From contig JALOPK010000015.1 in NCBI GenBank assembly GCA_025453925.1, forward strand, positions 1-21,113: 21,113 bases of DNA, written 5' to 3'. This DNA comes from Candidatus Eiseniibacteriota bacterium. Lineage in GTDB: Bacteria; JAFGKV01. The position numbers and the translations under genes were made by a program. Positions 1 to 20,935 of this stretch are shown here, in pieces. The notes beneath the pieces are model-generated. The model worked only from the letters and a program-made list of their open reading frames with translations, ran no database searches and was not told where the DNA came from. Position 1 is the first letter of the stretch. Each line of letters begins with the position of its first letter.

Positions 1-814
1 CCCCGAAGCTCAGATCCTCGTCGTCATAGCGGATCTTGTAGCCCGAGCGGAGCGCCACCATCTCGGAAAACCAGTACTCCATGCCAACGGTGTAGCGCTC
101 CTGGTTGTCGCTGGGATGACTGCCGGCGAAGGCGACGGTGAGCCGGTGGGGGCCGAACTGCACGGGGTCCATCGCGAACCCGAGGTTGAAGTTGATCGGG
201 AGGGGGAATCGCTCGCTGATGAACGTGAGGTCAGGTCCGAAGTTGGTGACGGACATGCCGATCCGCAGCGACCGGAATCCCGTGTCATAGTGCGTGCCGA
301 CATCGGCCGACCACCCCGCCGCGTCGACATCATGGGCATAGAGGTGTATGTACTTGGCCGTGACCCCGAAACTGAACTTGTCGGTGAGGAACCGGGAATA
401 CGTCAGTCCAACCGCCATATCACGGGCGGTGAACATCTGACCTGTTCCGTTGGGATAGAACGGAGTAGTCACCTCCATGTCATCCATGTGCAGCAGAATC
501 GCTGACACCCCGATGACGCCCGCGCCACCCGGTGCCGGGGTGGCGAAGGCGAGGAACTCACACTGAATGTCGGCAGGCCACTCGGTGTGCGACAGCAGCA
601 ACTGACGCTGATCGAGCAGGCTCAGCGCACCCGGGTTGTAGTACGTGGCCGACACGTCATCGGTCACGGCCAGGAACGCCTCGCCCATCCCCACCGCGCG
701 GGGGGATACGCCGATCTGAAGGAAATTGGCGCCGGCCGTTCCGACCTTGACCTGCGCCTGCACCATGCCCGGAACTGCGAAGAGTACGGCGACAAGAGCA
801 ATCGTCTTCCTCAT
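1..814 (-). CDS. PorV/PorQ-family outer-membrane beta-barrel protein (3' end beyond window)
   Basis: Reading down from the ATG at 812-814, 271 codons are open to the left edge, so the C-terminus is missing. Residues 1-20 form a signal peptide (MRKTIALVAVLFAVPGMVQA) with an AQA cleavage site. The mature protein starts with the PorV/PorQ/UPF0164 signature: GTAGANFLQIGVSPRAVGMG, then a D-D-V-S-A-T-Y-Y-N-P-G-A-L stretch (about residues 53-65). Alternating amphipathic strands follow, as expected for an outer-membrane barrel of the FadL-like fold. In Bacteroidetes, PorV binds the C-terminal domain of T9SS cargo and shuttles it to the attachment complex; other family members lack a known role. The gene lies 18 nt after the exoprotein gene, with an SD (GGGGAGGG, complement of 821-828), so it is the third gene of the operon. 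Family assignment is strong; a role in secretion is inferred. Confidence 0.85.
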   Translation of the reverse strand, partial: MRKTIALVAVLFAVPGMVQAQVKVGTAGANFLQIGVSPRAVGMGEAFLAVTDDVSATYYNPGALSLLDQRQLLLSHTEWPADIQCEFLAFATPAPGGAGVIGVSAILLHMDDMEVTTPFYPNGTGQMFTARDMAVGLTYSRFLTDKFSFGVTAKYIHLYAHDVDAAGWSADVGTHYDTGFRSLRIGMSVTNFGPDLTFISERFPLPINFNLGFAMDPVQFGPHRLTVAFAGSHPSDNQERYTVGMEYWFSEMVALRSGYKIRYDDEDLSFG

Positions 815-832
815 GGTAACCCTCCCCGGCGT

Positions 833-2938
833 CTACTTCAGCACCACGAACTTGCCCACCTCGACGTTGCCGCTCTTCGGCCCTGAGGTGTATTCGACGC
901 TGAAGAGGTAGACATCGCTGACAATGGACTGGTTGTTGCGGCTGATGAGATCCCACGCCTCCCGAGGGCTGTTCGCATTGGTATGCTCCACGGTATCGAC
1001 CAGGTCGCCGTCCAGCGTGTAGATCCTAATCAGTGCCGTTCCCGGCGCGAGATTGACAAAGTCTATTCTGCGGGTGTGTTCGCTCCAGCGGACGCTGGAA
1101 TCATAGGCTTCCCATTGCAGCCCCTCGTAGTCCGCATCGATTCTGTATGGGTTCGGCACGACTCTGACCGGGAGGTCGGTGCCGAAGTCGTTGGCACCCG
1201 GGAAGACCGGCCCGATCTCCAGGTAGTTCTTCAGGATTGAACTCTCCAAAGGTCCCAGACCCGCGCGTTCGTTGCCGGTGTCGAATGCCACGACCGCGTA
1301 GTAGTAGGGGTAGAGGGCAGTGAGCCCCTCGTCTACGTATGTATAGGCATAGGGCTCTCCCGGGGCGCCCTGGTAGGCGGGAGGAGGCCATTCAGGATCG
1401 TACTCAACCAAGGTGTCAGACCTCGCCCACTCGTAGAGCAAGGTGGAACTCTCCAGGGTGCCGTAGCGACTCCGATAGATGCGATACCCTGCGAAGTCCT
1501 GAAGATAGGTGAACGGGTCGATGCTCTGTTCCGAGTTGTTCGACCAGTGGATGGTCACCCTGTTCTCGTCGGGCACGGCCATGACCTGAGGCGCATCCGG
1601 CGGCGGCGGCCCCCTGAAGTCGGGGATCCCGTCTCCCTCCACCCAGATCGTGTCACCTCCCTCGATGCGGAACTCCCCGAAGTACCCGTCGCCATCGGTA
1701 TCGATGCCGGGGATGTCATACACCCGGGCGGCCCAGACGGAGTTCGCCGCGACATCGGCAAGGTTGAACACGCCCGGCGAACGTACGAAGTTCGCTCCGC
1801 AGACATAGGCCAGCGTCACGGGCAGGGTGTCCCCCGCGGCGATGTCGAAGGGCCCAAACGACAGGAGGTACCTGGTATCCTCGTACGGCGTGCCCGCGGG
1901 AATCTGATCGGCCACGTCGATCTGGTTCGGGTCGAAATAGCCGTTGGACATGATGCGGTACTTGGCCTTGTCGCCGTCCGGCGTGCCCCTGACGTCAAAT
2001 GGATCTGACACCACGCGAGGTCCCCAGTCGCGCTGGGAATTGGTATCGGACAGCCACCAGTTGTAGCTCACCCGCAGGTCCGGATTCGGTGTTCGCACGA
2101 TGCGGACGCCGCTCACGCCGGTGGTGCCGTCCGACCCGAAGTAGTCGGCGATCCAGGCCAGGTTGATGGTGATCGAATCCCCGAATACGTCAGTCGTCTT
2201 CTCAGCGAAGCCGGTGACATCGTCCTGTGCGCCGTCGCTGAGGTCCGTGTTGGGTCCGACGCAGTCCGCATCGATGTAGACCCCCAGGTAGACATCGCGG
2301 ATCGACTCGCCGTCGGTGCGGATGTTCTTCACGCTGAAGTCGAACAGCACGAAGTCCTCGGCGTACGAGTAGCTCCAAGCATAGCTGCGCTGCGTCACTT
2401 CAATGCCCAAAGGAGTGTGGGACGTGGGAACATCGTCGAACGTGCTCGTGACAAACGTGTCTGCGTAGACGGCGATGTAGTCCTGCTCGGACACGGCACG
2501 GCCAGAAATCAGGGAATCGCTACTGGTGATGGACAACGATTCGATGAGGCACGGGGCCGCTTTGAACGTGCAGGGAAACATCTCATTCTCGTGCGCCCAG
2601 CCATCCGCTCCCACCGACACCAGCGTGTCGTTGTCCACCACGCCGCCGACCCACATGGCGCCCTGGAACAGATAGTCGACGCCAGACCCGCCCGGGAACT
2701 CGCACTTGGGATACCAGTATTCGGTCCCCCGGTAGTCGATCTGCTCGTCGTTGCCGAAGAATCCGAAGTTGGATATCGTCAACCAGACATTGCCGACCTT
2801 GTGCTGTTTCTGTTCACGCAGTGGATCGCCTGCGGCCGGGGCGTACTGGCCGGCCCCCGCCGGCCCAGTGGCCGCCGTGCGAGCCCCTGCAGGCGCAACC
2901 AGGAGCACCAGAAGTGCGGCGATGACGCGCGGCTTCAT
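833..2938 (-). CDS. Exported multidomain protein with FN3 and Por/T9SS-like C-terminal sorting domain
   Basis: This 701-aa protein has a signal peptide (residues 1-19, ending PAGA) and a long N-terminal region (about 45-440) of mixed beta character that I do not recognise. One DTDGDG calcium-type loop sits near residues 413-418. A proline run (443-447) leads into an FN3-like domain (about 448-565; HWSNNS, GYRIYRS, YYYAVVAFD). Residues 588-701 look like a Por secretion tail or FlgD-type Ig domain: VVPNPYR, then IRIYTLDGDLVDTV, then SDVYLFSVEY, then GKFVVLK at the end. In T9SS bacteria such tails direct secretion and surface anchoring. The ATG at 2938 has an AGGGAGG SD (complement of 2945-2951) that overlaps the upstream receptor stop codon, indicating translational coupling. 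Export and the C-terminal fold are well supported; substrate and activity are unknown. No catalytic motif is visible. Confidence 0.85.
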   Translation of the reverse strand: MKPRVIAALLVLLVAPAGARTAATGPAGAGQYAPAAGDPLREQKQHKVGNVWLTISNFGFFGNDEQIDYRGTEYWYPKCEFPGGSGVDYLFQGAMWVGGVVDNDTLVSVGADGWAHENEMFPCTFKAAPCLIESLSITSSDSLISGRAVSEQDYIAVYADTFVTSTFDDVPTSHTPLGIEVTQRSYAWSYSYAEDFVLFDFSVKNIRTDGESIRDVYLGVYIDADCVGPNTDLSDGAQDDVTGFAEKTTDVFGDSITINLAWIADYFGSDGTTGVSGVRIVRTPNPDLRVSYNWWLSDTNSQRDWGPRVVSDPFDVRGTPDGDKAKYRIMSNGYFDPNQIDVADQIPAGTPYEDTRYLLSFGPFDIAAGDTLPVTLAYVCGANFVRSPGVFNLADVAANSVWAARVYDIPGIDTDGDGYFGEFRIEGGDTIWVEGDGIPDFRGPPPPDAPQVMAVPDENRVTIHWSNNSEQSIDPFTYLQDFAGYRIYRSRYGTLESSTLLYEWARSDTLVEYDPEWPPPAYQGAPGEPYAYTYVDEGLTALYPYYYAVVAFDTGNERAGLGPLESSILKNYLEIGPVFPGANDFGTDLPVRVVPNPYRIDADYEGLQWEAYDSSVRWSEHTRRIDFVNLAPGTALIRIYTLDGDLVDTVEHTNANSPREAWDLISRNNQSIVSDVYLFSVEYTSGPKSGNVEVGKFVVLK

Positions 2939-2950
2939 TATGCAGCCTCC

Positions 2951-5900
2951 CTAGAAGGTAGTTCTGACGCCGACGCGAACATTGCGGCCGGCATGGTAGT
3001 TGTACGGGTCGCGGAGGTAGAGGCGACCATCGCCCCATGGTGTCCCCCATTGCCCGTACACCTCGCGGACGTTTTGGCGATCGAGGATGTTGCGGACGTC
3101 GAGTATCAGGTCAAGCCCGAGCCCCGCCACCTGGAATCCCTTATCAATCTTGAGATCCAACTCGCTGGTGTACGATTTGCGCACGTTGTTGGCGACGTTT
3201 TCTCCTTCGATCTTGGTGCCATCCTCGTCGGTGAGTGTATACGGAAGCCCGCTTCCATACTTCCAGAGGATGTTGACGCCCCAGTCCGAGGGGAGCCCCA
3301 CCCCGAAGAAACGGACTTCGTCACCCGGGAAGAAACGAAAATCAAGGCTCGTGGTGAGCGAGTGACGCTCGTCCCAGTCGAGGTAGTTCTCCTTCAGTGG
3401 GAGGTTCTCACCGGCATATCCGGAGTCGTACACGCTCCGGTCGGACGAGCTCTTGCCCGTGGCGATCATGTAGCTGTAGGCAGCGTTTCCGCTGATGTGG
3501 TTGGAGTACCGCTTCTCGAAGTTCACTTCGAATCCTCTGACCCGTCCGTAGTCCACATTCCCGTAGACGTAGAACCGGTCGAATCGGTCGCCCAGCACCC
3601 ACTGGTTCACCAGATCAAACACGTCCTTGAAGAAGCCCGTCACGTCCACCTTGAAGTTGTCGTTAAACGCGTGATCAACGCCGAACTCGTAGGCCACGGT
3701 GCGTTCCGGCAGAAGATTGGGATTGCCGAAGAGGTTGTAGGCCGAGGGCCCCTGGGTATCCCGGGCGAACACCTTGTCGAATTCCGGCCATTCCACGAAA
3801 TGCCCGTAGTTGAAGTAGAGCACATCCCGATCCGTGATGGGATGGCTGATGCCTATCCGAGGGCTCAGGTAGAACTTCCACATTTCCAGGGGGATCAACT
3901 CGCCGCTCTGGTCATATACCTCGCGACCCTCAAGGTCGCTGCCCAGGTAGCGGAAATCGAGCCGCGCACCCGCGTTCACGATCAGCCCCTCGAACTCCAT
4001 CTTGTCCTGCGCATACAGGGCCCCGTCAACCGGTTTGCGGGCATAGAAGTCGCGGAACGTGCCGCGATCGGGGTATCCCCCCACGCTGTCGGCCTCATCA
4101 TCCTCGAAGGGGAACTCATGCTGCGGATACTGGATCTCGCTGTGCGAGAAATCGTTGATGTTGAGCATGAACCCGGCTTTCGCCTGGTGGTGCTGGCCAG
4201 CCTGGGTGGTCAGGTCGAACTTCACCGTCCCGATGGTCTCGCGACGCTCGTGATACTGTGCCCAGACGTCGTAGGTCCCTTCCCGCCCGGCATTCCAGGC
4301 ACCGCTCCAGTTGGCGTCTTCGTAGGGCTCGCCGAACAGGTCGCAGACGCCGTTGCTGTTGTAGTCGACCCACTCACTGGCTGAGTCGTCGGCATCCCCG
4401 CTTCCATCAGGCTCACCATTGCCGTTCTCGTCATCCCACTGGCTTCGCCACTCGGGAGGATCATACTTGCCGTTGCCTTCGGCGCCATTGGGATTTGCCT
4501 GGGAGTAGTTGTCTCCCGCGGGATCCGGGTTGGCAAGGGCGTCGTAACCCGGTTCCTGTTCGTCGGGGATGCCGTCGATCCCCACATCGTAGAAGGGCTC
4601 GGCCTCGAACCCCGGATCCGCGAAGCCGTCATAGGGATCCCACAGTCCATTGCCGTTCCAGTCGGTGTAGCGTTCTCCGGGATCGTACACGCCGTTGGAG
4701 TCCGCGAAGGCGAAGGCGCGTATGCCTTCAGTGGTAACGACCCACATCTGGTCAACCCTCATGTCGCCCTCGCCGGGTTGCCAGACTCCGTCACTGTTCA
4801 GGTCGTTCCACGGATCGTAGTCGCCGTTGAACTCGTAGTCGATGTAGGCGACCTCATTGTTACCCCACTCGCCATCCCCGTCACGATCGACGAAACTCCA
4901 GCCATCCTGGTAGGGCTCGCCTTCGTCCCATCTCCCATTGCCGTTGAGGTCACCGTATGCCTCGGCAAAGTCAAACTGGTCGTTGGGAGCGTCGTACATC
5001 CCGTTTCCGTTCAGGTCTTCGTAGGGCTCGCCCGGGTCCCAGATCCCGTTGCCTTCACCCGCGGAACGGTCACCCGTGAACGGCATGCCGTCGGCCCCAT
5101 AGTCCTGGAACGGCTCTCCATCACTCCACGGTTCGTGATAGTCGGGAACTGAACCCCTGTAGCTCCCCCAGAAACTGCCCCAGGGAAGTATTGCGAGGTT
5201 GTCGAGATCGGCCAGGAGATCATAGAACGTGCGGTAGTCGCCCCACGACCCCCATGTCCCCACGGGAACGATCTTGGGGAACCAGTCCGGGCGATGGCCG
5301 CCGGGGAGCAGCTCGTACCGCGTCTTGAACAGACCCGCATTCACCGTGTAGAACGTATTGTTGCTGAGCGTATGGGTCCAGTTCAGGTTGAAATGGTTCG
5401 AGATCCGCAGCGTCCGGTAGTTGGTCTCGGGCGTGTAGCGCTTTGCCCAGTCTGAGCCCTCATTTCGGTCGTATGAGCCGCGATAGCTCAGGGTCATCTT
5501 CATCGAAGGTCTGAAACGGTAGCTGACCTTGCTCGATGCGGAGTAGCTGTTGTACTGCCGCTCCGGGATGCTGAGGCCGAGCACATCACGGTCCGGCCGG
5601 TCGCGGCCGTTGGGGCGGTAGCCGTCAGTGACATCCCCGTCGAACGACAGGAAGTAGCTGAGGTTGTCACCGGGCAGATCCAGGCCGAGTCGAGGAAGAA
5701 GAAACGTGGTCAGGGGTTCCGGCCCGCCCAGTGAGAGGGTCACGTGCTGGGTGTTGAACGAGAACTCGCCCGGTATGATCTTCGAACCCCCCGCGCTCAG
5801 CGCGTCAGTCAGGAAGCTGAAGCTCCCGGAAGTCGTGCTGACATTCCCTTCCTTTGTCACGAGGTTGATGATGCCCGACTGGGCATTCCCGTACTCGGCG

Positions 5901-6698: not shown

Positions 6699-6746
6699 CT
6701 GCGAAGCAGGGTTCAGGGCGCGGCTTGGGCGCATGCACCGTTGGGG

Positions 6747-6775
6747 TTGACCCGGCTCGGTCCGGGACCTATTGT
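6747..6775 (+). promoter_or_regulatory. Sigma70-type promoter for the divergent lipoprotein gene
   Basis: TTGACC (6747-6752), a 17-bp spacer, and TATTGT (6770-6775) place a start near 6782. This gives a leader of about 79 nt to the ATG at 6861. It also argues against the in-frame start at 6741, which would lie upstream of the promoter. A 6-bp hairpin (CCACGA/TCGTGG, 6789-6806) sits at the 5' end of the leader and could protect the mRNA. The -35 is about 50 bp from the -35 of the opposing operon, so the two may be co-regulated. Confidence 0.6.
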
Positions 6776-6860
6776 ATTCGGGTTTCTCCCACGAGTGTTT
6801 TCGTGGCGCCGCATCATGCGATCGGCGTCACTGCCTTCACCCCAGCGTGGAGTCCCTATC

Positions 6861-8693
6861 ATGGTGAAACGATTCATTGTCCTGTCGGCAGTGTGCATGG
6901 TGGCGATGGGCGCCGGCCTTTTCGGCGGCTGCAAGCCGGAGGTGACAGGGGATCCTCTCGATAACATACCCCCCTCGGTGCGTCTTCCGAATTCGATGGC
7001 AGACTCGATGAACCTCTCGGCCACCACCTTGGTAAAGTGGATCGGGGACGACGCGGACGGCATCGTCGTGGGCTACTCCTATCGGGTCGATGGAGGTCAG
7101 TGGCGTCATGAGGCCGACCACGATGGGGATTGGACGCCGGCGGACGACCTGAACGGCAACGATCGCCCCGATCGCAACTGGGACGGGGGCTTCGGTCTCC
7201 TGGGAGTCGACGACGACGGCGACAATGAGATCTCGGCCTATGAGGATTCTTCACGATACTATGGGTACTCCATCTACGCGGATGAGGAGCTTCCGAACGG
7301 GATCGACGATGACGGCGACGGCCGCGTCGACGAAGACTGCTGGGGCAATGACGCCAACCGGGATGGGGATTGCGGCTACGATCCCGAGGATAGTATCGAC
7401 GAGGACATGGCCGATGGCGTGGACAACGATCAGGACGGACTGCTCGACGAGGATCTCGTGGTCAGGCCGCGGTGGGTTCGGGCCATGGGCGTGGCGGGTG
7501 AGTGGACTTTCTGGTCGAGTGCGACCCAAGACACCGTTCGTTTCAATGCCACCGGAGGAGCGGCCGGGGAGGCGCATCAGTTCGAGGTGAAGTGTCTGGA
7601 CGACCAGAAGGAGGAATCCGCGCCGCTGATCCTCACCATCTTCACCACGACGTACCTTCCGACCCCAGAGATCACCGGCGGGCCTTCGGACAGCGCCAAC
7701 GTGTTTATGTCGGCGGATACCCTGGGTGCATGGAAGGGAGTCCGCTATGATCTCGGCGGCACCGATATCCATCGCGACGTGTACTACAACACCATCGAGG
7801 ACGGCCGCGTAGTGCGGTGGGCATACTGGCTTGATGATCCCGGCTACCGTCCGTCCCGCGATCGTTTCGATGCCCTCCCCGAAGCAGTCCTCTTCGATGT
7901 CACCACCGGCTGGCATACGCTGTACCTGCAATGCATGGACAATGCCGGCGCGATCTCCGATTCCGTCGTGTCGAGATCATTCTACGCTTCGAATCCGACC
8001 TTCGAACACGACATCCTCCTGGTGGATGCCACGTATCGAGGTTTCCCCGGCGCCTGGAACGAGGAGACTATCTATGAGGGGACGCTTCTCGCGGGTAAGG
8101 ACGTGACGCGCATCACCGTCCCGCCCGATGCTCCTCAATCCTTCACTCTACGGCCCGCCGACCTTGCTCCGTTCAAGGCGCTGTACTGGTACAAGGCGGG
8201 CTCGGAACAGGACTCACTGCTGCAACTGCAAAGGGCGCTGGTGAGCGAGTACGTGCTCCTCGGCGGAAAAGTCGTATTTGACGGGCTTCGAGTCCTCAGC
8301 GGTTCCTTCACCAATCTCATCCCCTCGGAATTCCAGGAGGGTGATTTCGCCCATGACTGGATCGGCCTGGCATCCGCGGATGAACCGGCAGGTTACGTTT
8401 TCCAGGGCGCGACTCCCCTCGCGGCCGGCTACCCGGTCGTTCACCTCAAGGCGGGAGCCTTCCCATACCCGGGGCTTCCGTTTACCACGACGGCCACGGC
8501 ACGACAGGGAGCCGATCCGCTCTTTGCAATAACCTCCACCGACTCGACGGCTAACGGCCGTGTGAACGCGATCCGCTACGTGCCCCAGGGCAGCACGGGC
8601 AAGGTGCTGTTCTTCGGGTTCCCGCTGATGTATCTGGAGCCGGCGGAACTCGTGCCGCTGGGCCAGGCGATACTCACGGATCTCGGTCTGTAG
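6861..8693 (+). CDS. Lipoprotein with Asp-rich calcium-loop repeats and GATase-like C-terminal region
   Basis: From the ATG at 6861 the protein is 610 aa. Residues 1-24 form a lipoprotein signal (MVKRFIVLSAVCMVAMGAGL then FGGC, acylated Cys24); the -3 residue is Phe, slightly unusual. The start is preferred because the promoter at 6747-6775 lies downstream of the longer in-frame start. Residues about 36-84 resemble the FN3-like D-x-D-G-I-V-x-G-Y-S-Y-R-V-D-G-G-x-W module. Residues 85-200 are Asp/Gly-rich repeats. Residues about 265-375 look like a second beta-sandwich. The C-terminal part (about 380-610; HDILLVDA, LGGKVVFDGLRVL, GKVLFFGFPLMYLEP) resembles a class I glutamine-amidotransferase-like or ThuA-like fold, without an evident Cys-His-Glu triad. 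Its function is unknown; it is likely anchored in the outer or inner membrane. Its gene ends at a strong terminator. Confidence 0.85.
   Translation: MVKRFIVLSAVCMVAMGAGLFGGCKPEVTGDPLDNIPPSVRLPNSMADSMNLSATTLVKWIGDDADGIVVGYSYRVDGGQWRHEADHDGDWTPADDLNGNDRPDRNWDGGFGLLGVDDDGDNEISAYEDSSRYYGYSIYADEELPNGIDDDGDGRVDEDCWGNDANRDGDCGYDPEDSIDEDMADGVDNDQDGLLDEDLVVRPRWVRAMGVAGEWTFWSSATQDTVRFNATGGAAGEAHQFEVKCLDDQKEESAPLILTIFTTTYLPTPEITGGPSDSANVFMSADTLGAWKGVRYDLGGTDIHRDVYYNTIEDGRVVRWAYWLDDPGYRPSRDRFDALPEAVLFDVTTGWHTLYLQCMDNAGAISDSVVSRSFYASNPTFEHDILLVDATYRGFPGAWNEETIYEGTLLAGKDVTRITVPPDAPQSFTLRPADLAPFKALYWYKAGSEQDSLLQLQRALVSEYVLLGGKVVFDGLRVLSGSFTNLIPSEFQEGDFAHDWIGLASADEPAGYVFQGATPLAAGYPVVHLKAGAFPYPGLPFTTTATARQGADPLFAITSTDSTANGRVNAIRYVPQGSTGKVLFFGFPLMYLEPAELVPLGQAILTDLGL
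7113..7460 (+). repeat. Asp/Gly-rich TSP3/EF-hand-loop-like repeats in the lipoprotein
   Basis: Lipoprotein residues about 85-200 contain repeated acidic loops: DHDGDWTPADDLNGNDRPD (86-104), VDDDGDNEISAYED (116-129), NGIDDDGDGRVDED (146-159), DANRDGDCGYDPED (164-177) and NGVDNDQDG-like DGVDNDQDGLLDED (185-198). Such N-G-x-D-D-D-G-D-G-x-x-D-E units are typical of calcium-binding surface proteins. Two cysteines (C160, C171) flank one loop. Metal binding is inferred. Confidence 0.75.
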
Positions 8694-10841: not shown

Positions 10842-11195
10842 ATGATGTACCGCTGGCATCCGGGGTACCTGGCCTGGCTCCTCAATCGCGTCACCGGTCT
10901 TGCCGTCACGCTGTACTTGGGAGTCCATATCTGGGTTATCCACCATCTGAGCCAGGGGCGCCAGGGATTCGACCGGGTCATGCATTTCATCCAGAGCCCG
11001 GTGACCATGGTTTTTGAGCTGCTCCTCATCGGCGCAGTCCTCTACCACGGCATCAACGGCGTGCGGATCATGCTGGTGGAGTTCGCCGGTGTCTCCCGAC
11101 ACCAGAAGGTCATCTTCGTCGGCGTCCTCGCGTTCACCGGCATTCTCTTCCTGAGTGCCGTGGTTGCGGCCATTCCTCACCTCGTCTCGCATTGA
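10842..11195 (+). CDS. sdhC: Succinate dehydrogenase cytochrome b subunit
   Basis: The 117-aa membrane anchor of complex II holds heme b and helps form the quinone site. Three transmembrane helices are visible (about 12-35, 54-78, 90-112). The N-terminal R-W-H-P-G-Y-L-A-W-L-L-N-R-V-T-G motif and YHGINGVRIMLVEF (68-81) are typical SdhC signatures; H29 and H69 are candidate axial heme ligands. An AAAGGAGG SD (10827-10834) lies seven bases before the ATG at 10842; a second ATG follows immediately. It is the first gene of the sdhCDAB cluster. Identity is clear from both sequence and context. Confidence 0.9.
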   Translation: MMYRWHPGYLAWLLNRVTGLAVTLYLGVHIWVIHHLSQGRQGFDRVMHFIQSPVTMVFELLLIGAVLYHGINGVRIMLVEFAGVSRHQKVIFVGVLAFTGILFLSAVVAAIPHLVSH

Positions 11196-11235
11196 ACGCT
11201 TCCTCATCACCCGCAGACACACGGAGGCATGTGAC

Positions 11236-11595
11236 ATGACAGTCGAACGAGGACGCGGTTCCGGTGGATTCTGGTGGTGGATGATGCAACGCGTGACGGG
11301 GATCCTCCTTTTCCCTGTTCTGATGGTGCATTACGTTGTCACCCACCTGCACACATCGCACTACGTTGAATACGATAAGATCGCAGCTCGCGTCGCCACT
11401 CCGGCATGGAAGTTCCTCAACATCCTGTTTCTCACCATCGTACTTCTCCATGGTCTCTACGGCGTGTGGAACGTGTTGCTCGACTACCTCTCGAAGCGGC
11501 CCGTCCTTCGAGCCGTTCTCTACTCGATCGTCGTCACCATCGGTCTCGCGCTCTATGTGCTCGGCCTGGTGACGATTGTTCCCTTCTCGGCCTGA
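11236..11595 (+). CDS. sdhD: Succinate dehydrogenase membrane anchor subunit
   Basis: The 119-aa protein is the second hydrophobic anchor of complex II. A G-F-W-W-W-M-M-Q-R-V-T-G-I-L-L-F motif (11-26) starts the first helix, and helices follow at about 22-40, 58-84 and 93-115. H32, H37 and H72 (in LLHGLYGVWNVLLDY) are candidate heme or quinone-site residues. The ATG at 11236 follows an ACGGAGG SD (11221-11227) by eight bases; a longer frame start at 11155 would overlap sdhC and has no SD. It sits 40 nt after sdhC. A two-anchor arrangement with a conserved His in each suggests a di-heme (type A) enzyme, but this is only inferred. Confidence 0.87.
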   Translation: MTVERGRGSGGFWWWMMQRVTGILLFPVLMVHYVVTHLHTSHYVEYDKIAARVATPAWKFLNILFLTIVLLHGLYGVWNVLLDYLSKRPVLRAVLYSIVVTIGLALYVLGLVTIVPFSA

Positions 11596-11631
11596 TGGGT
11601 GCCGGACGCTCACTTAGGAGGCATTGATCGC

Positions 11632-13365
11632 ATGGAACACCATCGACATGATGTGGTTGTGGTCGGCGCCGGCATCGCAGGTCTCTACGCGGCCATGAAG
11701 GCGGGCGAGAGCGCCGATGTCGGGGTGCTGTCAAAGGTCTACCCGACACGGTCCCACTCCGGCGCGGCCCAGGGCGGTTGCGCGGCGGCGCTGGGCAACG
11801 AGGGCAACGACAGCTGGGAGTTTCATTTCTACGACACGGTACGCGGGGGCGACTTCCTCGGCGACCAGGATGCCCAGGAGCTCCTGGTGAAAGAGGCCAT
11901 CCCCGTGATGTACGAGATGGAACACCTCGGCGTCCCCTTCTCCCGGACCGCCGAAGGCAAGATCGCCCAGCGGCCGTTCGGGGGCCATTTTGCCGACTTC
12001 GGCAAGACGGCCGTCAAGCGGGCCTGCTACGCTGCTGATCGTTCGGGACATGCGCAGCTGCATTGCCTGTACGAGCAGAGCCTCAAGCAGGGAGTCAGGT
12101 TCTACAACGAATTCTTCGTGATTTCGCTCATCATCGAGGACGGTACGTGCCGAGGCCTCGTGGCGCTGGAGATCAGGACCGGAGTTCTCCACGCCTTCTG
12201 GGCCCGCGCGGTCATGCTCGCCACCGGCGGGTATGCGAGGGCGTGGCGCGTCACGTCCAACTCCCACGCCAATACCGGCGACGGTCTCGCTCTGGTTGCC
12301 GCGGCCGGCGTGCCGCTGGAGGACATGGAGTTCGTTCAGTTCCACCCGACCGGGTTGTACCCCCATGGCATCCTCATTAGCGAGGCGGCCCGTGGCGAGG
12401 GCGGCTATCTGTTCAACAATGACGGCATGCGCTTCATGGAGAAGTACGCCAAGTCCAAGATGGAGTTGGCGCCGCGGGATGTTGTCTCTCGCGCCGAACA
12501 GACTGAGATCGACGAAGGACGCGGCATAGACGGCGGGGAGTATCTGCATCTCGACCTGACGCATCTCGGGGAGAAGACGATTCTCGAACGGCTTCCCCAG
12601 ATCCACGAGCTCGTCGTCAAGTTCGCCGGCATCGACTGCACCAAGAAGCCAATCCCGACACAGCCGACGGCCCACTACTCGATGGGCGGCATACCTACTG
12701 ACCTCGACACCCGCGTGCTGCGCGACGGGAAGAAGCAGGCGGTTGAGGGGCTGTTCGCCAGCGGCGAATGCGCCTGTGTATCCAATCACGGCGCCAACAG
12801 GCTGGGCACCAACTCCACCCTGGAGGCCGCGGTATTCGGCAGGCGAGGCGGGATGGTCATGGCCCGATTCGTCAAGGAGGCAGGCCCCATCCTGCCGGGC
12901 GCCGAGCGTCCGACCCGTGAAGCCGAAGAGGGGTTCGAGCATCTCTGCGCCAGCTCGGGGCCGGAGTCGGCCAAGCGGATACGCGCGGAGCTTCAGGCCT
13001 CGATGACCGACAATGTCGGCATCTTCCGCACCGCCGCCAAGCTCCAGAAACAGGTTGCACTCATCCGGGATCTGAAGGCCCGATTCGAGAATGTGGGGAT
13101 CTCCGACCGGTCGCGACGGTTCAACACGGAGATCACCGAGCTGATCGAGCTCAAGTACATGCTCGATTTCTCCGAAGTCATCGCCGTGAGCGCCCTTGCC
13201 CGGGAAGAAAGCCGGGGGGCTCACTCGAGGAATGACTATCCCAAGCGCGATGACAACCAATGGCTCCGCCATACCCTGGCGTTCCGCGAGGCGGACGGCA
13301 GCCTACGACTCGACTACAAGCCAGTAGTCATCACCCGCTTCCAGCCAGAGGAACGCAAGTACTGA
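11632..13365 (+). CDS. sdhA: Succinate dehydrogenase flavoprotein subunit
   Basis: The 577-aa catalytic subunit oxidises succinate to fumarate using covalently bound FAD on the cytoplasmic side of the membrane. It shows the Rossmann motif [14 protein letters not shown] (8-21) and flavinylation His42 in [11 protein letters not shown]. Active-site residues are H237 in FHPTG and R281 in [22 protein letters not shown] and NRLGTNS are further family motifs. The length is normal. The ATG at 11632 is ten bases after TAGGAGG (11615-11621); the in-frame GTG at 11599 would lie directly after sdhD and has no SD. The C-terminal HTRNDYP-like region reads [13 protein letters not shown], as in the family. 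No damage was seen. Confidence 0.97.
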
Positions 13366-13375
13366 GGAGGACGAC

Positions 13376-14074
13376 ATGGAGCGGCAGTTCAAGATCTACC
13401 GGTTCAATCCCGAGGCGGCGCCGGCGGCCTCATTCCAGACATACACCGTTGACATTCAGCACGCCTGGACCGTGTTGGATGCCCTCAACGCGATCAAATG
13501 GGATCAGGATGGATCTCTCTCGTTCCGCAGGAGCTGCCGTCATGGGATTTGCGGCTCCTGCGCGATGAAGATCAATGGCAAGAATGGCCTGGCCTGCGAG
13601 GTGCAGGTTGAGTCCCTCAAGGGGGTCATCACGGTCGAGCCTTTGCCGGGTTTCAAGGTGATTCGCGATCTCGTCACCGACATGGACGGTTTCTTCAGCC
13701 ATCTGGAGGCGGTGAAGCCATGGCTCATCGCGGGTACACCGCCGACCGACAAGGAGCGGGTGCAGTCCCCCGAGGACCGCAAGCTGATCGACGGCCTGTA
13801 CGAGTGCATACTCTGCGGGGCATGTACCTCGGCGTGTCCCTCCTACTGGGTGAACGACGATTTCCTGGGACCGGCGGCACTGCTCAAGGCGGCGCGTTAC
13901 GTGATGGACACCCGGGATGACGGGCTTACCGACAGGCTCGACGTGCTCGACAGTCGAAACGGCATTTGGCGTTGCCACACCATTTTCAACTGTGTCGAGG
14001 CGTGCCCGAAGAGCCTCAACCCCACCGAGGCCATTGTGAAGCTTCGTCAGAAACTTGCCGCGCTCAGGATATAG
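13376..14074 (+). CDS. sdhB: Succinate dehydrogenase iron-sulfur subunit
   Basis: The 232-aa protein carries electrons from SdhA to the membrane quinone site through three clusters. All eleven ligands are visible: C54, C59, C62 and C74 for [2Fe-2S]; C144, C147, C150 and C210 for [4Fe-4S]; and C154, C200 and C206 for [3Fe-4S]. Motifs include CRHGICGSC and CILCGACTSACPSYW. The ATG at 13376 is coupled to sdhA, since its GAGGAGG SD (13364-13370) overlaps the sdhA stop codon. Length and order match the family. After it comes a 97-nt gap before sucC. Confidence 0.97.
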   Translation: MERQFKIYRFNPEAAPAASFQTYTVDIQHAWTVLDALNAIKWDQDGSLSFRRSCRHGICGSCAMKINGKNGLACEVQVESLKGVITVEPLPGFKVIRDLVTDMDGFFSHLEAVKPWLIAGTPPTDKERVQSPEDRKLIDGLYECILCGACTSACPSYWVNDDFLGPAALLKAARYVMDTRDDGLTDRLDVLDSRNGIWRCHTIFNCVEACPKSLNPTEAIVKLRQKLAALRI

Positions 14075-14113
14075 TCGGGTCCTGGTGCGGATCTCTGACC
14101 GATGACCGACACT

Positions 14114-14150
14114 GCGGGCGCGGCGGGCTGAGGAGCGCCGTGGCGCCCGC
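14114..14150 (+). terminator. GC-rich hairpin between sdhB and sucC
   Basis: Perfect 8-bp arms GCGGGCGC (14114-14121) and GCGCCCGC (14143-14150) are followed by GGTGCTTTCC, a poor U-tract. It may be a weak terminator, an attenuator, or an mRNA processing/stability element that sets sucCD below sdh. A tandem TGACCGA repeat (14096-14109) lies just upstream. Confidence 0.4.
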
Positions 14151-14171
14151 GGTGCTTTCCCGGAGGCATGC

Positions 14172-15341
14172 ATGAAAGTCCATGAATACCAGGCCAAGGG
14201 GATCTTGGCCAGATCCGGTGTCCCGATCCCCAAGGGCCGCGTGGTGGGTAACCCAGAAGACGCCTATCACGCCGCCCGGGAGCTGGGCGGCCGCGTGGTC
14301 ATCAAGGCGCAGGTGCACGCGGGAGGCCGTGGAAAGGCCGGCGGCATCCAGCTCGCGCAGACTCCTGAAGAAGCCGAGGCGAAGGCGGGACGAATGCTCG
14401 GATCCTCACTGGTCACGTACCAGACCGGAGGACGGGGAGTAGTGGTGAAACGAGTGCTGGTCGAGGAGGTAGTTCCCCTCCTCCGCGAGCTGTACCTTGG
14501 GGCGGTGCTGGACCGGGCGTTGAGCCGCGTGGTGGTCATGGCCAGCACCGAGGGCGGGGTCGAGATCGAGGAAACCGCAACCCGCTCGCCGGAGAAGATC
14601 TTCAAGGAGTGGGCAGACCCGTTCATCGGCCTGGCCGACTTCCAGACGCGTCGGCTGGCCATGCGGCTCTCATCGGATCGAGCGATCATTCGGCAGCTTG
14701 CCGGTGTGATCTCCGGCGTCTATGCCGCGTTCCTTGCCAACGACGCATCGATGGTGGAGATCAACCCTCTTGTGATCACTGATGATGGCCGCGTGATGGC
14801 ACTGGATGCCAAGATGAGCTTCGATGACAGCGCCCTCTACCGGCGTGCCGACGTCGCCCAGATGCGCGATCCGGCGGAGGAGGACAGTCTTGAGGAAGAG
14901 GCGCGGACTCAGGGCTTGAGCTTCGTTCGCCTCGATGGGAACATCGGGTGCGTCGTCAATGGCGCGGGGCTGGCCATGGCGACCATGGATATCGTGAAGT
15001 ACTTCGGCGGATCACCGGCGAACTTCCTCGATATCGGGGGTTCCTCAAGCCCTGAGAAGGTTCTGGCCGCGATGCGGGTCCTGCTGGCCGATCCGCGGGT
15101 GAAGACAGTGCTCTTTAACATATTCGGCGGCATTACGCGGTGTGATGACGTGGCAACGGGCATGGTTCAGGCGCTTCGCGAGATTGGGACACCTCTGCCG
15201 GTGGTCGTGCGTCTCACCGGCACCAACGAAGAAGAGGGGCGGCGGATACTGCAGGAAGTCGGCCTCGAGGTGGGCTCCTCGATGGAGGAAGCCGTCAAGA
15301 AGGCCGTGGCCAAGGCAGCGGAGCAGGGAGGGACGATATGA
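14172..15341 (+). CDS. sucC: Succinyl-CoA synthetase (ADP/GDP-forming) beta subunit
   Basis: The 389-aa beta subunit, with SucD, interconverts succinyl-CoA and succinate with substrate-level phosphorylation of ADP or GDP. The ATP-grasp domain (about 1-235) starts with [20 protein letters not shown], contains [15 protein letters not shown] (44-58) and the Mg-binding N198 (VEINPL) and D212 (ALDAKM). The C-terminal CoA-ligase domain includes [24 protein letters not shown] and [11 protein letters not shown]. Length matches the family. The ATG at 14172 follows a CGGAGG SD (14161-14166) by five bases. Its stop overlaps the sucD start by 4 nt (ATGA), so both subunits are made together. Context next to sdh places it in the TCA cycle. 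Confidence 0.97.
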
Positions 15342-16210
15342 GCATCCTCGTCGATACCAGCACGCGCGTTCTGGTACAGGGCATCACGGGCAGGGATGGA
15401 AGCTTCCACACACGGAAGATGAAGGAATACGGGACGAACGTGGTGGCGGGCGTCACCCCCGGCAAGGGCGGCACCGAGGCCGAGGGTGTGCCGGTGTTCG
15501 ACACGGTGGCCGACGCGGTGGCGGCAGTCTGCCCGAACTGCTCGGTGATCTACGTGCCGGCGGCGCTCGCCGCGGACGCGATGCTCGAAGCCGCCGAGTC
15601 GGGACTCCCGCTGGTGGTATGCATCACGGAAGGACTGCCCGCGCTCGACGTGGTCAAGGCGAAGGCAGTGATGCAGCGGCAGGGCATCCGCCTCATCGGG
15701 CCGAACTGCCCTGGCGTCATCAGCCCGGGCACGTGCAAGGTCGGCATCATGCCTGGTTCCATCCATCAACCCGGCTCCATCGGTGTGGTCAGCCGATCAG
15801 GAACGCTCACCTACGAAGTCGTCGCGGGGCTCTCAAAGGCCGGTTTGGGGCAGTCAACGGCCCTGGGCATCGGAGGCGACCCAGTGATCGGGACCACTTT
15901 CCTTGACGTGCTCGAGCTCTTCGAGAAGGATCCGGAGACGAGAGCCGTGGTCATGATCGGCGAGATTGGCGGTAATGATGAGGAACGAGCGGCGGAGTAC
16001 ATCATGCGTGAGATGACGAAGCCGGTGGTCGCCTTCATCGCGGGTCGCATGGCGCCTCCGGGGAAGCGGATGGGGCACGCGGGCGCCATCATCGCCGGAG
16101 GCAAGGGCACGGCGGCCGAGAAGACTCGCGCGCTCGAGGAGGCCGGCGTCCCCGTGGCACAGGTCCCCTCAGACATCCCAGGTCTTCTCCGTCAACGGGG
16201 CGTACAGTAG
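15338..16210 (+). CDS. sucD: Succinyl-CoA synthetase alpha subunit
   Basis: The 290-aa alpha subunit binds CoA and carries the phosphohistidine. The N-terminal CoA-binding Rossmann domain shows [22 protein letters not shown]-type sequence (starting V11) and GGVTPGKGG-like [11 protein letters not shown]124 lies in [11 protein letters not shown]. The catalytic loop [17 protein letters not shown] contains H247, the site that is phosphorylated (H246 in E. coli). The ATG overlaps the sucC stop by 4 nt, a classic coupled start. Length and motifs are ordinary. Confidence 0.97.
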
Positions 16211-20002: not shown

Positions 20003-20935
20003 ATGCGCACGGCCAGTATCGCCGCTCTTCTTTTTCTCGTCTCTTCGTTCGCCTATGCCGGCCCGGTGGTCACCGGGAGAATGATGCCTGTCGGCGCTGA
20101 ACCGGGCAGGGGGCTCTACCAGTGCGATGACGGCACGTCGGAGTACTTCTGGAACGCCGACTTCGCCGGCGAAGGCATGGCGAATCAGTTCAATGCCGGC
20201 GGAGTTGCCCGGATCGACACGATTTTCTACACGGTGATGCACAGCACCGGCACCCCTCAGCCAGTGCAGAGTGCGTATGTGTGTGTCTGGGCCGATGCGG
20301 GTGGCGTGCCGGGAGCCCCGCTCTACCAGGGCCTGTACGATTTTCCGGTTCCCGAGCAGGGCTTCTACTGGTGGGTGGCCTTGGACCTCGCCGCAGCCAA
20401 CATTGTCGTGAACGGCAACTTCTGGGTCGGCTACCTCGACGATGGCACCATGACCTATCAGCCGTATCTGGACAATCCCACCGCCTGCAACACCTACATG
20501 TACACGCCCGCCGACGGATGGGAAGACATGGAAGGCTATGCGGGGATTCCCCTGGGTCTCTACTTCCGATGCTGGGCCTCGGAAGGCGTCCCGGTGGAAC
20601 TCACGTCTTTCGACGCCACTGCCGGTGACGGCGAGATCGTACTCAGGTGGGCGACTGCCAGCGAGACCAATACGTTTGGATATCGTCTTCTGCGCTCGCT
20701 GCAGGAAAATGGCTCGTTTGCCGCTGTCGGCGATCTCATCCGGGGAGCCGGCACCACCAACACGCCGCAGACCTATTCGTTCACCGACCGCGACGTGCAG
20801 GTCGGCGTTCGCTACTACTACGAGCTGGTCGATGTCGATGCATCCGGGGCCGAGACGGTTCACGGCCCGGTCAATGCACGCTTGACGCCTCCGGATGCCC
20901 GCACCTGGGGCGCGATCAAGGCCGAGTTCAAGTAG
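20003..20935 (+). CDS. Exported FN3-domain protein of unknown function
   Basis: The 310-aa protein has a clear signal peptide (MRTASIAALLFLVSSFAYA, cleaved after residue 19). The middle part (about 36-192) is a beta-rich domain starting CDDGTSEYFWNADFAGEG, rich in Tyr and Trp, with no catalytic motif seen. It resembles surface beta-sandwich modules, but I do not recognise a named family. Residues about 196-295 form an FN3-like domain: PVELTSFDATAGDGEIVLRW, TNTFGYRLLRS, YYYELVDVDASG. The C-terminus is a short charged tail TWGAIKAEFK with no typical Por sorting domain after the FN3 module. The SD is AAGGAGG. It is followed by a perfect 12-bp hairpin terminator. It is a probable surface or extracellular protein. 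Confidence 0.8.
   Translation: MRTASIAALLFLVSSFAYAGPVVTGRMMPVGAEPGRGLYQCDDGTSEYFWNADFAGEGMANQFNAGGVARIDTIFYTVMHSTGTPQPVQSAYVCVWADAGGVPGAPLYQGLYDFPVPEQGFYWWVALDLAAANIVVNGNFWVGYLDDGTMTYQPYLDNPTACNTYMYTPADGWEDMEGYAGIPLGLYFRCWASEGVPVELTSFDATAGDGEIVLRWATASETNTFGYRLLRSLQENGSFAAVGDLIRGAGTTNTPQTYSFTDRDVQVGVRYYYELVDVDASGAETVHGPVNARLTPPDARTWGAIKAEFK

Follow-up and report, generated by a model that had tools for sequence, protein, structure and literature searches.

An extracellular loop of a TonB-dependent receptor enlarged by tandem EF-loop-like units, probably as a calcium-stabilized arm

A TonB-dependent receptor (TBDT) of Candidatus Eiseniibacteriota bacterium carries an unusual and optional array of EF-loop-like units in its extracellular loop L4, and this array probably forms a Ca2+-stabilized arm. 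We analyzed a window of 21,113 nucleotides (contig JALOPK010000015.1) from a 3.9-Mb draft genome that is 82% complete, together with related loci in other genomes. The explanation we prefer, which we judge somewhat more probable than its negation, is that the region is an acidic, Ca2+-binding arm built of tandem 15-residue units. The features on which this reading draws are collected in Table 1.

Table 1. Features of the receptor, its neighbors and other array-bearing proteins (coordinates refer to the window unless a locus is named).
Feature	Position	Strand	Basis or remark
TonB-dependent receptor, 1,196 aa	2951..6541	minus	ORF; Pfam; AF2 model; structural matches
Optional insert, aa 413–761, extracellular loop L4	4259..5305	minus	insert-less homologue alignment; AF2 strand parity
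EF-loop-like array, 12–14 loops, aa 480–757	4271..5104	minus	loop scan versus shuffles
Loop DLNGNGMYDAPN, aa 509–520	4982..5017	minus	loop scan
Loop DLNGNGRWDEGE, aa 531–542	4916..4951	minus	loop scan; full ligand set
Loop DRDGDGEWGNNE, aa 552–563	4853..4888	minus	loop scan
Loop DLNSDGVWQPGE, aa 580–591	4769..4804	minus	loop scan
Loop FADSNGVYDPGE, aa 612–623	4673..4708	minus	loop scan
Loop DWNGNGLWDPYD, aa 627–638	4628..4663	minus	loop scan
P701, 701-aa surface protein	833..2938	minus	adjoins receptor; Fn3-like region by inspection
PorV/PorQ-family outer-membrane protein	1..814	minus	NF033709, E 1.2e-55; third gene of operon, runs past window edge
P650, lipoprotein-like	6741..8693	plus	divergent here; start codon uncertain
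PQQ-like propeller	L115:22-2877, L173:287-2950		arrays break several blades; other blades without arrays
Beta-helix proteins with arrays	L153, L174
Big_1 proteins with arrays	L152, L159
Ig-like protein with array	L179		by inspection
C25 peptidase with array	L154
Esterase with array	L116
P701-family proteins with arrays	L155, L176		L112 carries a different loop type

The receptor and its enlarged loop L4

The protein is a TonB-dependent receptor by its Plug domain and 22-strand barrel, and a role in uptake is predicted. Pfam assigns a CarbopepD_reg_2 domain (aa 32–117) followed by the Plug domain (aa 128–222; PF07715, E 2.8e-7, over its cut-off), and the barrel is confidently modeled by AF2 from a 38-row alignment. 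A structural search with this model returned TBDTs alone, including Fiu (Z 34.5), FecA (33.9) and BtuB (33.7), and gave no information on the insert. BtuB, FecA and Fiu have the Plug domain and 22-strand barrel in common with the receptor but lack its N-terminal carboxypeptidase-regulatory-like domain. The nearest named relative, from Candidatus Fermentibacteria, is 84% identical.

The sequence-only reading had placed the repeats at 4268–5140 on the minus strand, which corresponds exactly to aa 468–758 of the receptor; alignment with insert-less homologues, the check it had proposed for the boundaries, reveals a larger insert, the first ~55 residues of which are poor in loops. In the AF2 model, the insert is flanked by barrel strands 7 (aa 396–412) and 8 (aa 762–781). 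The neighboring turns, at 391–396 and 781–785, are short like periplasmic turns, and the insert is therefore extracellular loop L4. Strand parity in the model thus bears out the earlier suggestion of a surface-exposed loop and contradicts a periplasmic location. That the array interrupts the barrel proved correct for the sequence but not for the barrel itself, which the model shows with all 22 strands intact and the insert as a single surface loop. Model confidence falls below a pLDDT of 50 over aa 416–759 in the full receptor, for which the alignment is shallow, and averages 29 for the isolated insert of a homologue (L041, six alignment rows), so that AF2 supports neither a fold nor an ion geometry for this region; flanking helices of the EF-hand type are not predicted around the loops, again at pLDDT below 50. 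We rejected an assembly artefact, as the insert is also present in two other genomes, both Fermentibacteria, at 84 and 74% identity.

At least four strict loops lie between strands 7 and 8 in 12 of 81 related receptors, which have 196–462 residues there; two others have two loops, a single loop is present in a few, and the majority have 30–70 ordinary residues without loops. Loop number at the L4 site is thus graded from 0 to about 18, with L178 at the extreme (18 loops) and L177 carrying a short, intermediate array, and Zixibacteria, Calditrichota and candidate division LCP-89 are among the named bearers. Of the 386 genomes scanned, 15 have dense arrays of any kind (E <= 1e-10 with a four-unit profile, A3). 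These figures agree with the original impression that such an array is unusual for a TBDT and contradict the alternative that it is common to all members of the family. In a tree that excludes the insert, the bearers fall into three groups: one of nine members (SH-aLRT 98), one made up of the window receptor and its Fermentibacteria relative, and L043. The barrel tree requires three changes of insert state, with weakly resolved forks between the groups, and is compatible with two possible histories, a single origin followed by losses or several gains. Two receptors (L112:5466-9095 and L047:5923-9087) also carry NGIDDDGDG-type loops ahead of the L4 site; by inspection, these belong to the extracellular loop before it.

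The repeat unit and its conservation

The unit, defined from 101 strict loops in 12 receptors, reads [FYW]-x-D-x-N-G-N-G-x-[WYF]-D-x-x-[ED]-P, with 15 residues as the commonest spacing, and its ligands follow the EF spacing 1-3-5-9-12 with G6. In the pooled loops, D1 occurs 99 times, N/D3 101, N/D5 100, G6 92, D9 81 and E/D12 73, frequencies that are partly circular because the loops were picked by score. The score did not include the aromatic residue at position -1, G4, R/V7, proline 13 or the period of 15, which are free of this circularity.

Loops in the window receptor were found by scoring 12 residues for EF ligands (D1, D/N3, D/N5, G6, hydrophobic 8, D9 and D/E12), and 2,000 shuffles of the insert's own residue composition served as the reference. 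A loose threshold gives 14 loops (shuffle mean 4.8, maximum 13), a middle threshold 12 (mean 2.8, maximum 9) and a strict threshold 5–6 (mean 0.3–0.6, maximum 3–4), an excess that is descriptive, as the score was devised after the motif had been seen; independent evidence comes from conservation. The earlier count of about 13 loops is fair at the loose and middle thresholds, but a nearly complete set of ligands is present in only 5–6 of the 12–14. The remainder are degenerate, and about half of all the loops lack a ligand.

Comparisons with relatives indicate that the insert is under strong purifying selection and that its ligand positions are the most conserved. First, dN/dS for the insert against the Fermentibacteria relative (L038) is ~0.04, similar to that of the barrel, although dS is near saturation and the value is approximate. 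Second, 70 of 78 ligand and glycine positions are identical in a more distant homologue (L104, 74% identity), as compared with 140 of the 210 remaining positions of the insert. Finally, D/E/N ligands are kept as D/E/N at 54 of 55 positions in L038 and at all 55 in L104. At the DNA level, Tandem Repeats Finder detected no repetition of the 45-base unit, either in the window or in L115, which argues against recent expansion of the array.

These data bear on the possibility that the insert is an acidic, intrinsically disordered surface decoration that binds no metal specifically and owes its loop likeness to a composition rich in D, N, G and W. Such a reading, which we regard as rather unlikely, is favored by the very low AF2 confidence and by the net charge of -62 across the 291-residue segment at aa 468–758. 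It fits poorly, however, with loop counts above those of composition shuffles, with a fixed register in which ligand positions are more conserved than the rest, and with a 15-residue periodicity that recurs across phyla.

The unit is not captured by the family models we scanned. Searched at E up to 1, the receptor matched no Pfam EF-hand model, and neither did homologues or other hosts at the thresholds applied to them; Pfam and NCBIfam returned the scaffold families alone and left the arrays unmatched, and no TSP3 family appeared in the Pfam tables. Searching the PDB by sequence with the insert found nothing, and the array profile found no convincing structure there (best E 0.064, with calmodulin-like proteins and MMP-14 at chance level). 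The RTX nonapeptide repeat (GGxGxDxUx, 9 residues) was rejected as an identity for the unit, given the commonest spacing of 15 and the different pattern. A literature search for TonB-dependent, EF-hand and calcium-binding loop found no paper combining the three, and further searches gave only studies of BtuB, zinc piracy and lanthanides.

Several known systems nevertheless resemble the array in part. EF-hands and dockerins also space their ligands 1-3-5-7-9-12 over 12 residues, with G6, but the arrays differ from them in having no predicted flanking helices, no Pfam match and many more loops. Thrombospondin type 3 repeats and bacterial TSP3 repeats consist of DxDxDG-type Ca2+ loops in tandem, have no EF-hand helices and form extended, Ca2+-dependent structures. 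They share tandem calcium loops with the array, whereas the unit here is distinguished by its 15 residues, N3, N5, aromatic 8, D9, E12-P and aromatic spacer. PERCAL insertions of bacterial peroxidase domains likewise place a variable number of D/G-rich calcium motifs inside a folded domain, but their consensus is G-x-D-G-x-x-[GN]-[TN]-x-D-D, their host protein is another one, and Ca2+ binding has been shown for them (PMC3396595).

A calcium-dependent arm and its alternatives

We infer Ca2+ binding by the arm from its ligand pattern, its acidity, the Ca2+-rich compartment that it would face and precedent: many folds contain DxDxDG-type loops that bind Ca2+ (PMC3123361), the calcium-motif insertion of bacterial peroxidases was demonstrated to do so (PMC3396595), and BtuB holds two Ca2+ ions in an aspartate cage of extracellular loops, its affinity for B12 dropping 1000-fold when Ca2+ is low (PMC7360065). 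In our model, each unit, [FYW]-x-D1-x-N3-G-N5-G6-x-[WY]8-D9-x-x-E12-P, would bind one Ca2+ through positions 1, 3, 5, 7 (backbone), 9 or a water, and 12, and the aromatic residues would pack between units to give an extended stiff rod or a small domain rather than helix-loop-helix EF-hands. The metal-free arm would be unfolded and strongly acidic, a state that fits with transit through the periplasm and assembly in the outer membrane; millimolar external Ca2+ would then fold and stiffen it. Folding on export would parallel that of RTX repeats, in which Ca2+ bound outside the cell triggers folding (PMC5018854). The arm would most likely serve to shape the mouth of the receptor and to contact a surface neighbor, most plausibly the adjacently encoded P701, a putative T9SS export. 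Asparagine at positions 3 and 5 is expected to give weaker affinity than aspartate and counts against a calcium arm, as does the lack of a ligand in about half of the loops.

Ca2+ could also act as a gate, with ions on the arm ordering neighboring loops and switching substrate affinity in the manner of BtuB. The 1000-fold effect on B12 affinity (PMC7360065) and the closeness of the receptor model to BtuB speak for such a switch, and Ca2+ sites in extracellular loops are common to BtuB and our proposal. BtuB, however, binds its two ions with a few aspartates in short, ordinary loops, whereas L4 here spans ~350 residues with 12–14 units, an arm that would be superfluous for gating, and most related receptors have no such loops at L4; we consider a gate improbable.

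The loops might instead capture metals or lanthanides, concentrating cations for uptake by the receptor. D9, common in the array (81 of 101 loops), is a feature of lanmodulin loops, and TBDTs import metal complexes. But asparagine in place of aspartate at positions 3 and 5 disfavors trivalent ions, and the same arrays occur in an esterase, propellers and Ig proteins, none of them transporters, which makes this role very unlikely.

Least credible is a dockerin-like module, which would realize the docking to a cohesin-like partner suggested from the sequence. The genome does contain a 9,211-residue open frame in which two matches to cohesin (PF00963) exceed the cut-off (G000:C124:1003-2103; loci L121 and L122), but its dockerin (PF00404) matches lie at C468 (G000:C468:228-368) and, weakly, at C124, with none in the window or the receptor. 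Moreover, dockerins consist of two loops with helices, as opposed to 12–14 loops and no predicted helices here.

Gene neighborhood and other array-bearing proteins

The receptor gene is followed by those for P701 and the PorV/PorQ-family protein. Among loci with sufficient flanking sequence, a P701 homologue lies downstream of the receptor in all nine that bear the insert and in 51 of 58 that lack it; these counts come from relatives found starting from the receptor. P701 is thus also adjacent to insert-less receptors, and the arm is therefore not required for the receptor–P701 pair. Some P701 homologues have a T9SS-like C-terminal domain, with weak Por_Secre_tail or PorZ C-terminal matches, and SprA is present in the genome. 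The arrangement recalls SusC/SusD pairs, in which a TBDT with a CarbopepD N-terminal domain also sits beside a conserved surface protein. It differs in that P701 and two homologues have no Pfam SusD match, and P701 instead resembles T9SS cargo beside a PorV-family gene. P701 is a natural candidate for interaction with the receptor. In several large-insert loci (L039–L041 and L109), ~2 kb part the receptor from P701; this gap holds a lipoprotein-like gene in L041 and L109, the one in L041 encoding a beta-helix protein.

P650, divergent in the window, comes fourth in the same operon at loci L107 and L108, as judged by position and sequence start; it has no Pfam or NCBIfam match. It contains several NGIDDDGDGxxDED loops of its own, a calcium-loop type unlike that of the receptor. 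Elsewhere in the window, an operon-like run at 10842–16210 reads by eye as succinate dehydrogenase subunits (10842–14074) and succinyl-CoA ligase (14172–16210). A 310-residue exported-looking protein at 20003–20935 resembles FCB surface proteins in its C-terminal region and has no family match above cut-off.

Besides receptors, arrays are hosted by seven unrelated exported scaffolds (Table 1), and the only other array in the receptor's own genome at E <= 1e-3 lies in a P701-family protein. The likeness of the arrays across hosts may stem from shared ancestry or from convergence towards a simple motif. We tentatively raise a broader idea, which is possible but less than likely: that the array of 15-residue units is a portable calcium-loop module, as yet without a family model, which occupies exposed loops in a wide range of unrelated exported proteins, expands in place, folds into a rigid arm upon Ca2+ binding only outside the cell, and forms a surface interface between the receptor and P701.

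More broadly, the conserved set of receptor, P701, PorV-family protein and P650 hints at a receptor system, so far undescribed, that is linked with type IX secretion. If our reading of the insert is correct, one surface loop of a TBDT would have grown into a metal-stabilized arm across several FCB-group phyla. Arrays overlooked by the Pfam and NCBIfam models scanned would decorate many exported proteins, adding a repeat family and aiding the annotation of surface proteins in uncultured bacteria. They would also allow extracellular folding triggered by calcium to be tested in proteins exported by routes other than type I secretion.
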